Source: Anaerolineales bacterium
GTDB lineage: Bacteria; Chloroflexota; Anaerolineae; Aggregatilineales; UBA2796
Direction of reading: 5' to 3'
Assembly (NCBI GenBank): GCA_015075625.1
Contig: JABTTZ010000003.1
Coordinates: 1-64,000 of the forward strand
DNA: 64,000 nt
The position numbers and the translations under genes were made by a program. The notes under the pieces were generated by a model. It did not search any database. It had not been told where the DNA came from and saw only the letters and a program-made list of their open reading frames with translations. Of the stretch, positions 38,470 to 45,697 are shown in pieces. The first letter of the stretch is position 1, and each line of letters starts with the position of its first letter.

Positions 38470-39177
38470 ATGGCACTTTCTCTTGAAAAGCAAGACCATT
38501 ACCGCGAATTGTACCGCGCCCGCACTCCCGGTTGGCGACCCGCCACCGAACGTTATGAAACGGTTATCCGCGATCATCTCCGTCCGGGGCTGCGCGTTTT
38601 GGATGTTGGCTGCGGGCGTGGGGGCGTCTTGGAGCAGCTTGGTGAGCTTGTCGATTATCCAGTGGGGGTTGACCCTGACCTTGCCAGCCTACGGGAACAC
38701 CGTCTTGCGACATTGCCGCGTGCTGCCGCCCTTAGTGATGCCCTTCCCTTTGCTCCAGAAAGTTTTGATATGATTCTCGCCAGTTGGGTGCTTGAACATC
38801 TTGACGATCCCTTGCGCACCTTGAACACCATTCGCCGGACGCTTACCCCCGGCGGCTTGTTCATCTTCCTAACCCCCAATGCCCGCAGCCTTGTAGCGCT
38901 CTTGAATCGCCTGTTTCGCCCGTTCCAAACCATCCTCGTTCCACGTCTCTATGGGCGGGCAGAGGCAGACACCTTCCCCGTCCGGTATCGGGCAAACACT
39001 AAAAGCGCTCTCCAGCATTGGGCGGGGCGGGCGGGCTTGCAGTGTGAACGTCTTTTCTTCATTGCCGACCCATCCTACCTTGCCTTCACACCGTTTCTCT
39101 ATCGGGTGAGCCACGCCCTCGCCCAGTTTACCCCACCTGTTCATATCGTCGGCGTGTTCCGGCGGGAGGCAGCCTGA
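38470..39177 (+). CDS. Class I SAM-dependent methyltransferase
   Basis: 235 residues. The AdoMet-binding motif VLDVGCGRGGVLEQLG (~42-57), an acidic loop GVDPD at the end of strand 2, and DMILASWVLEHLDDP (motif post-III) identify a small-molecule or lipid methyltransferase of the Methyltransf_11 type. The substrate is unknown. Stop TGA is followed 1 bp later by the TPR gene, and PyrK/PyrD-like genes continue downstream, so it is the first gene of a four-gene unit. Confidence 0.9.
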   Translation: MALSLEKQDHYRELYRARTPGWRPATERYETVIRDHLRPGLRVLDVGCGRGGVLEQLGELVDYPVGVDPDLASLREHRLATLPRAAALSDALPFAPESFDMILASWVLEHLDDPLRTLNTIRRTLTPGGLFIFLTPNARSLVALLNRLFRPFQTILVPRLYGRAEADTFPVRYRANTKSALQHWAGRAGLQCERLFFIADPSYLAFTPFLYRVSHALAQFTPPVHIVGVFRREAA

Positions 39178-39178
39178 G

Positions 39179-40222
39179 ATGACGACGATTAATACCCCAC
39201 CGTTGACGGCGCTGCCTCCCCCCATCGAATACACCTATCAAACAGGGCTGACACTCTCCAAATTGGAAGCCATTCGTGCCGACCTCAGCGAACGGCTGAC
39301 AACGATCACCACCCCCTTTGAGATTGCCACCGAATCAGGACGATTAGCAGGTGTTCTTTACGCACTGGGCGAGGCGGCAGGGGCGCTGGCAGCCGTAGAA
39401 ACAGCGCTGCGGGCGGCAGAGGCGGCAAAGGAGACGGCGCTTGGTGGTTACCTTGCTTGTGTGGGTGGCGCAGCCGCCTGTTTTCAAGGGCAGTATCAAC
39501 GGGGGGCAAATTATTTTGAAGAAGCCGAACAAGCCTTCGCCGCCAGCGGAGATAGCATTGGGGAGGCATTTCGCCGCCAAGCCTATGCCCGTGAATATGC
39601 CTCCGATCTAAGGCAGTTTTCCAAGACAACTGAATATCTCACCGTTGCTGTACAGGTACTCCGAGGGCGCGTCCCCCAAACGGTGATTATCGAAAATCTG
39701 CTCACCCAAGCGGCGTGTATGGTGCATCAGAACGAACTGCGCCGCACACGGGAGATTATTCAACAAGCCGAGGCGCTCATGAACGAGCAAAAAGCACACT
39801 GGTTTCGCCCCGAACTTGCTGTCATCAAAGCCGATATTGCTGTTCTAGAGGGAAACACCGAGGATGCCTTGAAACACTGTTACACCGGGTTAGGGGGCAT
39901 TGGCGATAGCGGCGATTTACGGATGCTCTCGCCGCTTTACCTGTTGTTAGGGATCATCCTTGAGCGCGAGAAGAACCGTGAGAGCGATGTGCAAGATGCG
40001 CTAGATAGGGCAATCGCTACGGGGCGTGTCCGGGCGCGGCGGCTGCACCTTGCCCTTGCCCTCCGTCAAATGGGGATGCACATGCGGCGGCTGACGGCAC
40101 GCAATACCGTTCGGGCAAAAGGGAGCGGCTTTCTGTTTGAGGCAGAACGAATGCTAGGCGAAATTCAGCTAAGTGAGCAGTTCCCCACCGCCCCCGCCGC
40201 GCCGCTTCCTCAGATTCTTTGA
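39179..40222 (+). CDS. TPR-like helical-repeat protein
   Basis: 347 residues, almost all alpha-helical. Repeating units of ~35 residues such as GRLAGVLYALGEAAGALAAV, CFQGQYQRGANYFEEAEQAF, LTQAACMVHQNELRRTREII and DIAVLEGNTEDALKH look like tetratricopeptide repeats (about seven). GGAGG stands 9 nt before the ATG. No catalytic motif; a scaffold or regulator for its neighbours is likely. It is in the same unit as the methyltransferase and PyrK-like gene (2-bp gap to the latter). Confidence 0.75.
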   Translation: MTTINTPPLTALPPPIEYTYQTGLTLSKLEAIRADLSERLTTITTPFEIATESGRLAGVLYALGEAAGALAAVETALRAAEAAKETALGGYLACVGGAAACFQGQYQRGANYFEEAEQAFAASGDSIGEAFRRQAYAREYASDLRQFSKTTEYLTVAVQVLRGRVPQTVIIENLLTQAACMVHQNELRRTREIIQQAEALMNEQKAHWFRPELAVIKADIAVLEGNTEDALKHCYTGLGGIGDSGDLRMLSPLYLLLGIILEREKNRESDVQDALDRAIATGRVRARRLHLALALRQMGMHMRRLTARNTVRAKGSGFLFEAERMLGEIQLSEQFPTAPAAPLPQIL

Positions 40223-40224
40223 TC

Positions 40225-40971
40225 ATGAACGAAGCGCAAGCCATCATTGAACGGGTGCGGCGTATCGCCCCTACCCTCCAGCGGTTAGAAGTTGCCACCG
40301 ATAAAACCCATCGGTTGATCGGTGCAGGGCAGCTTTTGCTTGCCCGTCTGACGGATTCCTTCGATCCCTATCTGCGGACGCCATGGCTGCCTATTGGGCG
40401 TGGCTCAAACGGCACCCTGATTATTGAACGTCCTACCCATCACCTTTATGCGCCCGGGCAAATCGTCAGCCTGTTGGGTCCGGTTGGCAAAGCGCTGCCC
40501 ATCGGGGATACCGTGCGGGCGCTGTTGTTGATTGCCTACGAAACAACACCCGCTGCCTTGCTTATGGCGGCAGCGCAGGTCATTGAACGTGGCGGGGCGG
40601 TGGCGCTGGCGCTCATCGGGCGGGCGGCAGCCTACCCCGTCGAGGCGCTACCGCCGGAGATCGAAATCATTCGTGCTGCTGATGATGTGCGCTGGACAGA
40701 GCGAGATCGGATGATCACCTGGGCAGAACAGATCATTGCCGTTGCCCCACCCGTTTACGATCTCCCCGCCTACACACGCCTTTTTGATCATGTGAAACGT
40801 ATTCGGATTGAACCCGCAGCAGACTACCTTTATGGCGTTTTTCATCACGCCATGCCGTGTGGGGTGGGGGCGTGCCAAGCCTGTTTGGTCGGTTTGAAGG
40901 GCGGGCGCGAGGCGCTGGCATGTGTTGATGGTCCTGCCTTTGATCTGACCGATGTCCGGTTGGAGGGGTGA
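40225..40971 (+). CDS. PyrK-like [2Fe-2S] flavoprotein, divergent
   Basis: 248 residues from ATG 40225. A ferredoxin-reductase-like architecture: a beta-barrel (LLLARLTDSFDPYLRTPWLPI), a nucleotide-binding half, and a C-terminal [2Fe-2S] site MPCGVGACQACLVGLK...ALACVDGP with four Cys (C-x4-C-x2-C-x11-C), typical of PyrK, the electron-transfer subunit of dihydroorotate dehydrogenase B. The FAD motif is altered: the usual RRPxS-type box reads RTPWLP, and the GGGIG stretch is replaced by LLIAYETTPAALLMAA, so NAD(P)H or FAD binding is in doubt. It overlaps no gene but starts 2 bp after the TPR gene and is followed 8 bp later by a PyrD-like gene. Confidence 0.8.
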   Translation: MNEAQAIIERVRRIAPTLQRLEVATDKTHRLIGAGQLLLARLTDSFDPYLRTPWLPIGRGSNGTLIIERPTHHLYAPGQIVSLLGPVGKALPIGDTVRALLLIAYETTPAALLMAAAQVIERGGAVALALIGRAAAYPVEALPPEIEIIRAADDVRWTERDRMITWAEQIIAVAPPVYDLPAYTRLFDHVKRIRIEPAADYLYGVFHHAMPCGVGACQACLVGLKGGREALACVDGPAFDLTDVRLEG

Positions 40972-40979
40972 GAAAACCA

Positions 40980-41924
40980 ATGACAATCAGCATTTCCTCA
41001 GGAAAACTAACCCTCGAACTGGCAAGCCCGCTCATTGGTGGGTCAGGGGCGTTCGGGTTTGGGGGAGAATATGCCCACTTGGTCGATCTCGATTTGCTTG
41101 GGGCGGTGGTTACCAACCCGATTTCGCTGAATGCCCGCCGTGCGGCGCATGGCACACGGATCATTCCTCTAGATAGTGGTATTCTCGTTCATACTGGACT
41201 GCCGAACCCAGGCATTTACAAAGCGCAACGCCAGTATGGGGCGCGGTGGAAAAGCAGCCCCGTTCCCGTGATCGTCCACCTGATTGGAACAACCCCGGAC
41301 GAGATAGCCGAATGTGCCACGTTCTTAGACCGTCAGGAGGCAGTGGGGGGTATTGAGTTAGGCTTGCCCGACAGCGCTACCCCACAAGAAGTACGTCGCT
41401 TGGTAACGGCGGCGCGGACGAAAACACAAGTCCCCATTTTGGTTCAACTCCCACTTGGGGGAGGGATTCAGGTGGCGATTGCGGCGGCAGAGGGTGGCGC
41501 AAATGCCCTAGTCGCTGCTGCACCCCCACGCGGAACAGCCCGCGATCCACTCAGTGGGCGCTTTATTGGAGGGCGTCTGTATGGACCCACCGTGAAAGCG
41601 CAAACACTGCGGGCAACAGGGCAAATTGCTGCCCAAATGCAGATACCCATCATTGGGGCAGGGGGTATCCACAGCGCTGATGATGCCCGTGATTTTTTGG
41701 CAGCGGGGGCGGTGGCAGTCCAAATCGATTCCGTTGTGTGGGTGCGCCCAGCATTGGTGGGTATGATCGCCCGTGCGCTCGGTGGTTTGGAGGCAACCCG
41801 TCCCGCCGGAGCGCTCAACGACGAATGGTCAACCGATGAGAGCATAAGCACACCGTCGATGCGTGCCTCCATCTTGCCCTCTGCCCCCTTGCCGCCCGAT
41901 AGCCAGAGCAAGCCCTCAGCGTGA
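40980..41924 (+). CDS. PyrD-like FMN protein lacking DHODH catalytic motifs
   Basis: 314 residues from ATG 40980; GGAGGGG lies ~11 nt upstream. The fold matches class 1B dihydroorotate dehydrogenase: SPLIGGSGAFGFGGEYAHL at the start, VHTGLPNPGIY, FIGGRLYGPTVKA and the FMN-phosphate site GAGGIHSADDARDFLAAGA. But the catalytic Cys motif NxSCPN is replaced by GIELGLPDSATPQ, the substrate Lys of KGIT reads VVTNPIS, the KLPP-type Lys reads VQLPL, and the NT-type Asn reads AAPPRG. It probably binds FMN but does not oxidise dihydroorotate. It is coupled to the PyrK-like gene and is probably the last gene of the unit. Confidence 0.8.
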   Translation: MTISISSGKLTLELASPLIGGSGAFGFGGEYAHLVDLDLLGAVVTNPISLNARRAAHGTRIIPLDSGILVHTGLPNPGIYKAQRQYGARWKSSPVPVIVHLIGTTPDEIAECATFLDRQEAVGGIELGLPDSATPQEVRRLVTAARTKTQVPILVQLPLGGGIQVAIAAAEGGANALVAAAPPRGTARDPLSGRFIGGRLYGPTVKAQTLRATGQIAAQMQIPIIGAGGIHSADDARDFLAAGAVAVQIDSVVWVRPALVGMIARALGGLEATRPAGALNDEWSTDESISTPSMRASILPSAPLPPDSQSKPSA

Positions 41925-41935
41925 GTGGAGTTCAA

Positions 41936-42313
41936 TCATTCCACCCACACTTCAACCCGTTCAGCATCATCGTGGTCGTCATATTCAAAGATTTTGCCGG
42001 TTTGCCCGCTGCGGATCGCCTCTAGCGCCCGTGTAAAATCGACCTCGCTATCGGTGGGAATGAACCGCGCTCCTAGCTTGATCCCAACATTGACAAGACT
42101 CATCGGAACGCTCACATTCACTTTCGTTTTGTTCGTTGCTTTATTCGTGACGCGCACACGCAACCAACGTGGATCGCGCCCTCGATCTTTGTCTTCTGCT
42201 TTCTTCGCCCCAACGTTCAAGGCTTGGAGCAGGCGTGATCCTTCATCGGGGCTGATCTTCCCATCACGGATCATATCGAGGATTTTCATCCGTTCTTCAG
42301 CGGTGGTCATCAT
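41936..42313 (-). CDS. SHOCT-like domain protein (short paralogue 1)
   Basis: 125 residues from ATG 42313 (ATG 42310 possible). Residues ~5-33 form a helical hairpin ERMKILDMIRDGKISPDEGS-RLLQAL, the 'SHOCT-like' module of YvlB/LiaX-type envelope-stress proteins. After a charged linker, the C-terminal ~75 residues (LRVRVTNKATNKTKVNVSVP, then GIKLGARFIP and an acidic DDHDDAERVEVWVE end) match the downstream-facing paralogue at 44813. It is the last gene of the operon, overlapping the GNAT gene by 17 bp and ending 11 bp before the convergent PyrD-like gene. Confidence 0.75.
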   Translation of the reverse strand: MMTTAEERMKILDMIRDGKISPDEGSRLLQALNVGAKKAEDKDRGRDPRWLRVRVTNKATNKTKVNVSVPMSLVNVGIKLGARFIPTDSEVDFTRALEAIRSGQTGKIFEYDDHDDAERVEVWVE

Positions 42314-43352
42314 ATCTTCCTTCCTGTACAGGCATCTCCCAGCGCATTTGCAGCCATGTTTGGCGGCGCTCAAAGCCAAGATCGTCCAAGAGCGCGGTGG
42401 TCACTACGTCATCCGCCGGATGTTCGATGTTAATTGGGGCGCGGTATCCCTCTAGGCGTCGGAGGGCATAGTTCACCAGCGGTGCTTCGTACTGTCCTTG
42501 ATAGCTAGGATGGACAATCAAAGTCAATTTTGCCGCACCGCCAAAGGATGTTAGGCAAGACAAGGAGGCAGCCACACCGCGCCCCGTTGGTTCACGGATG
42601 ATCCAGTGTTCCTCACCCTTTCCGGCAAGATAACGCCCCAAGACATTTCCCAACGACGGGCGAAACACCTCTGGGAGGGTTGGTTGTAACCAGCCCATCC
42701 CGCCGCGCTCGTTGGGACGGACACGCTCTGCAATGGCATACTCGGCTTGCCAATCCCCGCGCCCGCGAAGGGTAATATCGGGCATCTCCATCAATTTAAG
42801 AGGGGGACGAAAGCGATTTGGGCGCTGCCAGCGGATGAATGTCCGTTTGACAGAGAAACCAAGCCGTTCGTAAAGCCTTCGGGCAGCGCCGTTTTCGGCA
42901 TCCACCTGAAGAATGGCGTAATGCCCTTTCAGTTTGCCGATAAGCTCAAGCGAGGCTTTCATAAGCGTTTCAGCAATTCCCTGCCGGCGATAATCAGGGT
43001 GTGTGGCAACATTCGCCACAATATGCCCCTTTCCCATGCTGCGGGGAAGGGCTGCTTTGGAAACAGAGACATTGCCGACCAACACACCACGATCTAGGTA
43101 GACAAAGCCTTGTTCCAACCCCCCCGCCATCCGATCTACGCCTGCCAAGAGCCACAGAAGGGGACCGGATTGACTGATCATCCTCATTTCGCGGACGGCA
43201 GCACGCCCTGCCTCGTCCATCGTCGCCCCAAAACACAGTTCGATCAACTCTGCCACCGCACCGAGATCGCGCCGCAAATTGACGTGGCGCATCCCGGTGA
43301 ATTCGCTGCTTTCCCTTCCCTCACCAACGATAGACGCTGCCACAGGCAACAC
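42297..43352 (-). CDS. GNAT-family N-acetyltransferase
   Basis: 351 residues. The acetyl-CoA motif VATHPDYRRQGIAETLMKAS (Q/R-x-x-G-x-A type) lies in the N-terminal half, followed by GAARRLYERLGF. The C-terminal ~150 residues are less conserved and may be a second, degenerate GNAT domain. GTG 43352 or GTG 43343 are both possible starts; GGAGG lies at 43354-43358. It lies between two SHOCT-like genes of one operon; the acetylated substrate is unknown. Confidence 0.82.
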   Translation of the reverse strand: MLPVAASIVGEGRESSEFTGMRHVNLRRDLGAVAELIELCFGATMDEAGRAAVREMRMISQSGPLLWLLAGVDRMAGGLEQGFVYLDRGVLVGNVSVSKAALPRSMGKGHIVANVATHPDYRRQGIAETLMKASLELIGKLKGHYAILQVDAENGAARRLYERLGFSVKRTFIRWQRPNRFRPPLKLMEMPDITLRGRGDWQAEYAIAERVRPNERGGMGWLQPTLPEVFRPSLGNVLGRYLAGKGEEHWIIREPTGRGVAASLSCLTSFGGAAKLTLIVHPSYQGQYEAPLVNYALRRLEGYRAPINIEHPADDVVTTALLDDLGFERRQTWLQMRWEMPVQEGRYDDHR

Positions 43353-43358
43353 TCCTCC

Positions 43359-44762
43359 CTACAGCCGTCCCTCCAAGGCGGCAAGGAGGCGTTCGGCTTC
43401 TTCCACTGTGATCTGTTTGCTCTCCACCATGCGCAAGATAGCCAAGCGCTCTTGGTCAGAAACGGGCTCCACCGGGCGGCGCGGCGGCGCAGGAGGTGCA
43501 GGCGGTGCCGGTGCTGCGGGTGGTACACCAAAGCCAAAGGAGAATCCCCGGCGCTTTGGTTTTTCCTTTTCTCGCTCGGTTCGGCGCTCTGCCCGTTCGC
43601 GGATTCGCTCGCCATGCTCACGGAGTCGTTCGCCATGCTCGCGCATCCGATCTGCTTGACGAGACATTGTTTCCTGAACCCGCGCCATCTGCGCTTTGAT
43701 CTGTTCCGAGATCATCTCCTCCAGATTGTCTGGGATCATCCCTTCAAAGTCAAAATCGAATTCGGGTCCGAAGGAACGCCCTTGCACCAATTGAAACTCC
43801 CCGCCGATCTCCTCAATCTGGAAGCCAACGCCGTTTGTCTCAGCGTTGCCAAGCGTGATGGTCATTTGCCCGTTGCTCATGATGACCTTTGCCCCTGGCA
43901 CTCTCACGCTTTTCTCTGTTTCACTCGGAATGATGAACCGCGCCCGTGTTCCGCCCCGGATTTTTGCTAGAACATCGCTGCCCACCGAACCGACATGGTA
44001 GGGGGTCATTTCGTCCAGCGCCATGTCAATAACCAGTTCCGACCCAACCTCACCGATCTGGAGGGGTCCGTTGCTATCGATAATGACACAATCGGAGCCG
44101 ACAGCGGTGATCTGGAGTGGTCCTTGAATCTCTCGAAAGGTGGCATCGGATCCCACATTTTGAACGTTGACCGGACCCATGATGCGTTTCACTTGGGCAT
44201 CTGAGCCAATATCTGCCAGTATCAAGGGACCGGCAACATCGCGGATTTTCAAATCCGAGCCGACGGACTCGGTGATGGTGACGGGTCCTGAAATGTCCTG
44301 AATAACGGCATCGGAGCCGATACTGCCAATGACCACCGGACCGGCAATATCACGAATCACCGCATCTGAGCCAACAGACTGAATCGTTAGGGGTCCGGCG
44401 ACATCCGTCACCCGCAGATCGCTGCCAATCTCTTGGATCACAAGCGGTCCGCCAATATTGGAGATAATCGCATCGCCATCAACCTCAAGAACACTTACCG
44501 GCGCAGTCATGCCCGTTAAGTGGAGTTCGCCTTCCACCGCCCGAATGGTAAGCTTGACGTGCGGCGGGAGCATGAGCATTACATCGCCTTCGCCGTGAAG
44601 GGTGACGGCGCGCTGCTCCTCGTCGCTCTCTATCTGAACATCCTCGCCCACTGCTTTGAGTGTTGACCCGCCATATCCTTGGATGGTCAAATCACCTTCT
44701 ACGCGCTCAATGATCACTTCCCCATTGGGGTGCAAATCGTGTTCAAAACTATCCTCATGCAT
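43359..44762 (-). CDS. Beta-solenoid DUF4097-like protein with eight 'GSD' repeats and SHOCT-like C-terminus
   Basis: 467 residues. Residues ~104-265 consist of about eight repeats of ~19 residues, GP(L/V)xIxx(I/V)GSDxxIxDI, predicted to form a right-handed beta-solenoid like DUF4097/DUF4098 adhesin proteins. Then come a coiled-coil/charged segment (~340-400, MSRQADRMREHGERLREHGE), a Pro/Ala linker (APAPPAPPAPP) and a C-terminal SHOCT-like hairpin (DQERLAILRMVESKQITVEE-AERLLAAL). No signal peptide or lipobox is present. The same module in YvlB and LiaX senses cell-envelope damage in Firmicutes; a comparable role is inferred. It is the third gene of the operon. Confidence 0.8.
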   Translation of the reverse strand: MHEDSFEHDLHPNGEVIIERVEGDLTIQGYGGSTLKAVGEDVQIESDEEQRAVTLHGEGDVMLMLPPHVKLTIRAVEGELHLTGMTAPVSVLEVDGDAIISNIGGPLVIQEIGSDLRVTDVAGPLTIQSVGSDAVIRDIAGPVVIGSIGSDAVIQDISGPVTITESVGSDLKIRDVAGPLILADIGSDAQVKRIMGPVNVQNVGSDATFREIQGPLQITAVGSDCVIIDSNGPLQIGEVGSELVIDMALDEMTPYHVGSVGSDVLAKIRGGTRARFIIPSETEKSVRVPGAKVIMSNGQMTITLGNAETNGVGFQIEEIGGEFQLVQGRSFGPEFDFDFEGMIPDNLEEMISEQIKAQMARVQETMSRQADRMREHGERLREHGERIRERAERRTEREKEKPKRRGFSFGFGVPPAAPAPPAPPAPPRRPVEPVSDQERLAILRMVESKQITVEEAERLLAALEGRL

Positions 44763-44812
44763 GGTGAGGGGTCTCCTCCCTTCCTATACAACCGCAGTTG
44801 CGATACCATTCA

Positions 44813-45247
44813 CTATTCGACATAGATGCGGACACGATCTCCATCGTGGTCATCGTCTACTTCAACCAGTGTTACCGAGTCTCCCCCCTCAACCCGCCTC
44901 AAGACCTCATCCCAATCCGTGTGGGGGAAATCAGGAAAAAAACGGGCGCCAAAGCGTACCCCCGCCGTGACCATACCCAGTGGCACTTTAATTTTGACCA
45001 CCTCGTGCGCGTTCTTTTCCACCCGAATACGCAGGTAACGTCTTTTATTGGGTTCGTGTCGTTTTGCTTTTTCGTCGCCACCTGAGGCATGGTGGCGCGG
45101 GGCATCTTCGGCGGGTGGGGGCTGGTTCGGGGGGAGTTCATCCATGCCGGTTGTGCTGCTCCCCTGTGCATTTTGGATCAAGCGCGTCGCCTCATCAACG
45201 TTGATTTCCCCATTCGCTAAGCGCCCTAAAATGTCTGCTCGGTTCAT
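44813..45247 (-). CDS. SHOCT-like domain protein (short paralogue 2)
   Basis: 144 residues. The N-terminal hairpin MNRADILGRLANGEINVDEA-TRLIQNA is SHOCT-like. After a polar linker (PPNQPPPAEDAPRHHASGGD) the C-terminal domain RYLRIRVEKNAHEVVKIKVP, GVRFGARFFPD and an acidic DDDHDGDRVRIYVE end match the C-terminal domain of the paralogue at 41936. The order (SHOCT first) is also the same. It is the second gene of the operon, 42 bp after the DUF2089 gene. Confidence 0.75.
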   Translation of the reverse strand: MNRADILGRLANGEINVDEATRLIQNAQGSSTTGMDELPPNQPPPAEDAPRHHASGGDEKAKRHEPNKRRYLRIRVEKNAHEVVKIKVPLGMVTAGVRFGARFFPDFPHTDWDEVLRRVEGGDSVTLVEVDDDHDGDRVRIYVE

Positions 45248-45289
45248 GATCCGACTTCCTCTCCAAAACGGTATTGGTTATCTGCCTTC

Positions 45290-45664
45290 TTAGCCACGTA
45301 AAAGGGCTAAGGCATCGTCATAGGTGATCTCGCCCTTCTGAAGTTGATCGAGAACGCGCTTGCGTTCTTCCTCGGCGGGGGGAGGGGGTTCTTCCTCACT
45401 GACATCATAGCCAAGCGCCCCAATGACTTCCCGCAGCAGTTTGCGAATGGTAGGATACGATTTCCCCAACCGTTCTTCCACCGCTTTGATCTTCCCTTCG
45501 CAGACGAGGAAGATTTCAACAAACTCCAATTGTTCAGGGCTAAGCTGTGCCAACCGTCCAGCATAGAAATGCCCTTCAATGGTTGTGTCACACGCCCGGC
45601 AATGAAGGCGGGTGATTGCCAACGTCTCCCCACAGACTGGACAAATGCCTAAGACCGGATGCAT
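45290..45664 (-). CDS. DUF2089-family protein with zinc-ribbon, HTH-like and SHOCT-like parts
   Basis: 124 residues from ATG 45664 (MHPVLGICP); the GTG at 45688 is less likely because it is too close to the predicted start of transcription. Two CxxC pairs (CPVCGETL, CRACDTT) form a zinc ribbon. The DUF2089 core with EFVEIFLVCEGKIKAVEERLG and SYPTIRKLLREV looks like a helix-turn-helix. The C-terminus EEERKRVLDQLQKGEITYDD-ALALLRG is SHOCT-like. DUF2089 proteins are probable DNA- or RNA-polymerase-associated regulators (inference). It is the first gene of the operon and sits under a good promoter. Confidence 0.8.
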   Translation of the reverse strand: MHPVLGICPVCGETLAITRLHCRACDTTIEGHFYAGRLAQLSPEQLEFVEIFLVCEGKIKAVEERLGKSYPTIRKLLREVIGALGYDVSEEEPPPPAEEERKRVLDQLQKGEITYDDALALLRG

Positions 45665-45697
45665 AAACGCCCTTTCTCTTTCTGCCACCTATCAATT

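Follow-up and report, generated by a model that had tools for sequence, protein, structure and literature searches.

The closest described system to the locus analysed here is class 1B dihydroorotate dehydrogenase (DHODH), represented by the PyrDB–PyrK complex of Lactococcus lactis (1EP1–1EP3, 5KSW, 5UE9). In this enzyme, electrons pass from FMN through a [2Fe-2S] cluster and FAD to NAD (PMC8097209), and Lys48 of the catalytic subunit is needed (Combe et al. 2006, as cited in PMC8097209). Parts of the same architecture recur elsewhere. NfnA/NfnS of ferredoxin:NADP oxidoreductase and the gamma subunit of sulfhydrogenase (5JCA, 4YLF, 9NEZ) bind FAD and a pyridine nucleotide and have a partner other than a DHODH barrel, whereas dihydropyrimidine dehydrogenase (1GTE, 7LJU) is one large polypeptide with [4Fe-4S] clusters, in which the FMN domain keeps both FMN and the catalytic Cys.

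The window, a 64,000-nucleotide stretch of contig JABTTZ010000003.1 of an Anaerolineales bacterium (GCA_015075625.1), contains a PyrK-like and a PyrD-like gene, hereafter K and D, at positions 40225–41924, which a first-pass annotation made from the letters alone had placed correctly. The pair shares with class 1B enzymes both folds, the gene pairing, the four-Cys [2Fe-2S] site and the GxGGI of the barrel. In contrast, D lacks the NxSCPN loop, Lys48, Asn72, Asn100, the Asn-Thr pair and the second phosphate Gly of PyrDB, and K lacks the RRPxS, GxGT and GGGxG motifs of PyrK. K resembles the Nfn and sulfhydrogenase subunits in fold and in its C-terminal [2Fe-2S] domain (Z 21–22), but not in their FAD and NAD(P)H motifs, and D has the same barrel as the FMN domain of dihydropyrimidine dehydrogenase (Z about 29). 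The class 2 PyrD of the same genome (locus L001) belongs, like D, to the PF01180 family but has an NISSPNT active site. Judged by its active-site residues, the pair is derived from class 1B but is not a member of it.

Locus organisation and fold

K and D are preceded by genes for a methyltransferase and a TPR-like protein (Table 1). The gaps between these genes are 1 bp (methyltransferase–TPR) and 2 bp (TPR–K), and the stop codon of K and the start codon of D share a GTGA overlap. Such tight spacing suggests that the four genes are transcribed together. On the 3' side of D (41936–45688), convergent genes encode SHOCT-like, acetyltransferase, DUF4097-like, SHOCT-like and DUF2089-like proteins. 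In several relatives the same genes come after D on its own strand, so that the block is inverted in the window by comparison.

Table 1. Features of the K–D locus, in positions of the window. Residue 1 in the numbering of K is the Asn at 40228.
Feature	Position	Strand	Remarks
Class I SAM methyltransferase, at the 5' end of the gene string	38470..39177	+	Methyltransf_23, 70 bits
TPR-like helical-repeat protein, 5' of K	39179..40222	+	Sub-threshold ComR_TPR match only
PyrK-like [2Fe-2S] protein (K)	40225..40971	+	248 aa; ATG 40225, TGA 40971; alternative start TTG 40219
C-x4-C-x2-C-x12-C [2Fe-2S] ligand motif of K (C211, C216, C219, C232)	40858..40923	+	Invariant in 87/87 relatives
PyrD-like (beta/alpha)8 barrel without DHODH active site (D)	40968..41924	+	318 aa; GTG start
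N50 of D, position of class 1B Lys48	41115..41117	+	Lys in 0% of tiers 1 and 2
Site of NxSCPN loop deletion in D, now GLPDS	41361..41375	+	Loop missing in 86/86 tier-1 sequences, present in 30 canonical sequences
G232-G233 of D, kept half of barrel phosphate-binding site (GxGGIH)	41661..41666	+	100% in tier 1
D254 of D, replacing Gly of second FMN-phosphate loop (GT)	41727..41729	+	Asp in 98% of tier 1

In profile searches, D matched PF01180 (DHO_dh) above the cut-off (88.7 bits) and K matched PF10418 (DHODB_Fe-S_bind; 37.5 bits). D fell below the cut-offs of both equivalog families (PRK07259, 142.8 vs. 269 bits; TIGR01037, 123.1 vs. 270 bits), and its PRK07259 score suggested a protein derived from class 1B, yet far outside the equivalog. 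The top scores of K against the NCBIfam families of Nfn and sulfhydrogenase were below 27 bits. AlphaFold2 models of the single chains had pLDDT values of 88.7 (D) and 94.7 (K). The best structural match of the D model was 1EP2_A (Z 33.6, rmsd 2.4, 272 aligned residues, 28% identity) and that of the K model was 5KSW_B (Z 22.6, rmsd 3.0, 233 aligned residues, 18% identity); K also matched 1EP1_B (Z 22.3), and Nfn-type subunits tied with 5KSW_B. As modelled, both proteins retain the class 1B DHODH fold.

Substrate and cofactor sites

D was aligned as 86 sequences from the order of the window (tier 1), 26 from other Anaerolineae (tier 2) and 30 canonical class 1B sequences, nearly all of the latter from other Chloroflexota. 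Among 85 positions invariant in the canonical sequences, 36 were kept and 23 were lost in tier-1 D. The first-pass annotation had noted the absence of the NxSCPN Cys and of the substrate Lys and Asn residues, and all of these losses were confirmed. The change at the Cys was more than a point mutation because the entire loop is deleted, the canonical IELNISCPNVxxGGxxFG being reduced to IELGL--PDS in every tier-1 sequence. Lys48 of L. lactis aligned with N50. N72, N100 and the Asn-Thr pair, which have substrate roles in DHODH structures, correspond to V74, H104 and A185-P186, and the Asn of the motif corresponds to G132. Lys48 and the substrate Asn residues were retained in only 0%–1% of tier-1 sequences.

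The accompanying statement that D keeps its FMN motifs was only half right. GxGGIH is intact, but the canonical GGLSGP has become GRLYGP, which is near-invariant in tier 1, and the Gly of the second phosphate loop is now D254. In the alignment, most FMN-contacting residues of DHODH were replaced in D. New polar residues (H75, H104, R188, R192, D193, R203, Y205 and D254) are fixed within the order of the window and mostly absent from the class-wide tier 2.

In K, the four Cys of the [2Fe-2S] motif, also recognised in the first pass, were conserved in 100% of 70 tier-1 and 17 tier-2 proteins and are the best-conserved residues of the protein. The earlier observation that its FAD box is altered and that a GGGIG-type site is lacking held as well: RRP[LIF]S was replaced by R-x-x-W-x-P in tier 1, the VGxGTxxL loop was shortened and lost, and GGGxG of the NAD motif was replaced by an AYETTP-like sequence. 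Motif comparison within tier 1 identified no FAD or NAD(P)H site in K. The site losses in K and D cannot be attributed to chance, since dozens of independent genomes show identical changes.

Judged from these sequences, in this bacterium and most of its relatives the pair has lost its orotate site, its NAD site and probably both flavin sites, while the [2Fe-2S] site is kept under strong selection. The pair almost certainly no longer oxidises dihydroorotate, a conclusion drawn from both sequence and genome evidence, and very probably no longer uses NAD(H). Weak or absent binding of FAD and FMN is the more probable state, read from motifs, although new contacts could hold a flavin, given that GxGGIH is kept.

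Distribution, selection and pyrimidine synthesis

Among 84,980 species genomes scanned, 240 relatives were found, and the best 80 of these comprised 79 Chloroflexota records and one MAG with a Bacteroidetes label whose sequence nests within this set. The family occurs throughout Anaerolineae, with relatives in Chloroflexia. In the phylogenetic tree, a check proposed in the first pass, the NxSCPN-less proteins of the order of the window formed one clade (support 100/99), as did canonical class 1B (100/100), and all degenerate D proteins, including a divergent Chloroflexia group, fell outside the canonical clade. Tier-2 D proteins have diverged fast; their long branches leave the inner order of the tree unsure, and the sites may have been lost once or several times. 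The dN/dS values of close pairs were 0.04–0.13 for D and 0.04–0.25 for K, indicating strong purifying selection on an ancient family rather than decay. In 64 of 81 loci, K lies 5' of D in the same orientation, and in about 41 the two genes are no more than 65 bp apart. D was present in 48 of 61 relatives (in one of these in pieces only), none of the 61 had K without D, and some MAGs had D with K not detected. The pair is missing from one family of the order and is thus dispensable. Its sole match on a viral contig was one weak hit to K that came from a canonical class 1B pair, and a viral origin was therefore rejected. No paper on the NxSCPN-less clade was found in the open-licence full-text literature. 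In the reading favoured here, an ancestral class 1B PyrD and PyrK pair diverged within Chloroflexota and the present copy was repurposed.

The genome containing the window (4.68 Mb in 5 contigs, 98% complete) has three DHO_dh genes, namely a class 2 PyrD, a PRK07565-type protein and D, and K is its only PF10418 gene. The class 2 PyrD, at position 330756 of contig C2, has an intact NISSPNT motif and scored 371 bits against TIGR01036. The true pyrD that the first-pass annotation expected elsewhere in the genome is thus present, and this gene is evidently the pyrimidine enzyme of the organism. The PRK07565-type gene (L003, 1240–2244) lies between the end of a pyruvate:ferredoxin oxidoreductase-like gene and a HypD-like gene.

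Across the order, another DHO_dh, class 2 or class-2-like, was found in 42 of the 48 genomes with a D-like gene, and the motifs read in ten of these other DHODHs were NISSPN (class 2) and N[LVI]SCPN (class-2-like). The remaining six genomes, which lack a second intact DHODH, also had no pyrE above the cut-off, whereas pyrE was found in all four tested genomes having another DHODH. Incompleteness of the MAGs weakens single cases of pyrE absence, but not the overall pattern. D therefore survives where the pyrimidine pathway is apparently gone, and the two sets of genomes together indicate that the pair is not a pyrimidine enzyme; the idea that it replaces a missing pyrD was rejected because pyrE is missing from the same genomes. 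Outside the order, about 38 Anaerolineae genomes have a tier-2 copy; canonical class 1B is present as well in 19 of them, and class 2 in 12. One-for-one replacement of canonical class 1B was ruled out, as about half of these genomes have both, and this coexistence marks the pair as a paralogue that has diverged, not as a housekeeping enzyme that was modified. Each of the seven Chloroflexia genomes with a D-like gene has another DHO_dh (250–288 bits).

The class-2-like DHODHs of the order are about 380–440 aa long and use Cys as the base (N[LVI]SCPN) in place of the Ser that is usual in class 2. They were seen in L253 (1069–2286) and six other loci, adjoin pyrE in the three genomes checked, and score below the NCBIfam cut-offs.

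Gene neighbourhood and possible roles

The first pass had noted a linkage to a methyltransferase and a TPR protein. Five further genomes have an orthologue of the methyltransferase (53%–59% identity) upstream of K, and no homologue of the TPR protein was found in the other loci compared. Linkage to PIG-L and FHA genes was stronger across the family. A PIG-L/LmbE metal-dependent deacetylase (AHPDDE and GHPAH motifs; PF02585, 95 bits) separates K from D in about 18 loci, and a tandem FHA protein (nearest NCBIfam FhaB/FipA, 120.1 vs. cut-off 125) directly follows D in about 18. FmdB is a neighbour in 12 loci, and dnaX, often with ybaB, precedes K in about six. In most of the seven Chloroflexia genomes, a HEAT/PIG-L/FemAB/murE/D cluster places the D-like gene next to murE. 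LmbE-type enzymes act on substrates containing GlcNAc (PMC4101496), and the presence of PIG-L in both classes, together with murE and FemAB, weakly suggests work on cell-envelope amino sugars or peptidoglycan. With the FHA protein included, the neighbours hint at either an envelope or a regulatory function. This hint is weak because the neighbours vary between lineages and genes may be adjacent without sharing a function. A single conserved pathway was ruled out on the same grounds, the contexts (dnaX-ybaB, sbcDC-methyltransferase, FmdB, FHA, PIG-L) differing from lineage to lineage.

The loss of the old sites, with the cluster site under selection, implies that the pair now has some other job. 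Our best reading, to which we assign a probability of about 0.5, is that the complex was repurposed as a [2Fe-2S] relay or sensor and no longer runs canonical flavin chemistry. Judging from fold and operon, K and D most likely still assemble as a PyrD–PyrK-like complex, and the four invariant Cys suggest that K still carries the cluster. Formerly in the middle of the FMN–[2Fe-2S]–FAD wire, the cluster would be the sole recognisable redox site left and might relay single electrons for a protein partner or serve it as a redox switch. The reshaped barrel pocket, which in the order of the window includes the new polar residues of D and E130, could bind a ligand or that partner. The neighbouring genes are a weak pointer to amino-sugar or peptidoglycan metabolism of the cell envelope and its phospho-signalling. 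In its broadest form, a phylum-wide flavin-free [2Fe-2S] redox switch that governs cell-envelope metabolism by way of a PIG-L deacetylase and FHA proteins, the proposal is unlikely.

The strongest rival, which is the interpretation offered in the first pass, is a flavoenzyme with a changed substrate, in which D would keep FMN in a modified site, exchange electrons with the cluster of K and use the new His, Arg, Asp and Tyr residues as its active site. Its strength lies in the intact half of the phosphate site (GxGGIH) and in the polar residues fixed within the order; the retained fold and partner agree with it, and PIG-L and methyltransferase neighbours would fit a biosynthetic step. However, replacements affect most FMN-contacting residues as well as the GT phosphate loop, K lacks any identifiable FAD or NAD(P)H site through which to give or take electrons, and the polar residues are mostly lost in tier 2, leaving this reading a tentative one. 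It is unlikely that the pair is a structural pseudoenzyme with no redox role, in which the cluster only stabilises K and the complex serves proteins such as PIG-L or FHA as a scaffold or an allosteric partner. The PIG-L and FHA genes at the pair and the rapid divergence of tier 2 would suit such a role, but the cluster ligands are the best-conserved residues of K.

A divergent yet working DHODH might be argued from the fold, the partner gene, the PF01180 score and the three dihydroorotate oxidase/dehydrogenase genes listed in the genome paper of Chloroflexus aurantiacus (PMC3150298). It is nevertheless highly improbable, as the base, the substrate Asn residues and Lys48 are all gone, an intact DHODH is encoded elsewhere, and D is kept where pyrE was not detected. 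A decaying class 1B relic, redundant beside another PyrD, would explain why every old functional site is lost, but this is scarcely credible for genes with dN/dS far below 1, open frames, a kept operon and newly fixed residues.

Under the relay or sensor reading, the family would offer a clear example from nature of an enzyme with three cofactors that has apparently been reduced to the middle one and kept under selection. Hundreds of Chloroflexota genomes contain these genes, which automatic annotation may label as DHODH and its electron-transfer subunit. By their sites they cannot be DHODH, and pathway reconstructions that count them are therefore at risk. The more divergent NxSCPN-less D-like genes of Chloroflexia (L265, 4715–5563, in contig C1 of G178, and six further loci) probably have C. 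aurantiacus among their carriers. The use of a lone [2Fe-2S] relay becomes a question testable in a culturable phototroph. By gene position, the murE-adjacent gene is probably Caur_2338, listed as an anaerobic DHODH in the genome paper (PMC3150298). In one lineage (L126–L144), the K–D pair lies in a long syntenic block with genes for NUDIX, cob(I)alamin adenosyltransferase-like, glycosyltransferase, FmdB, agmatine deiminase-like and PfkB proteins.
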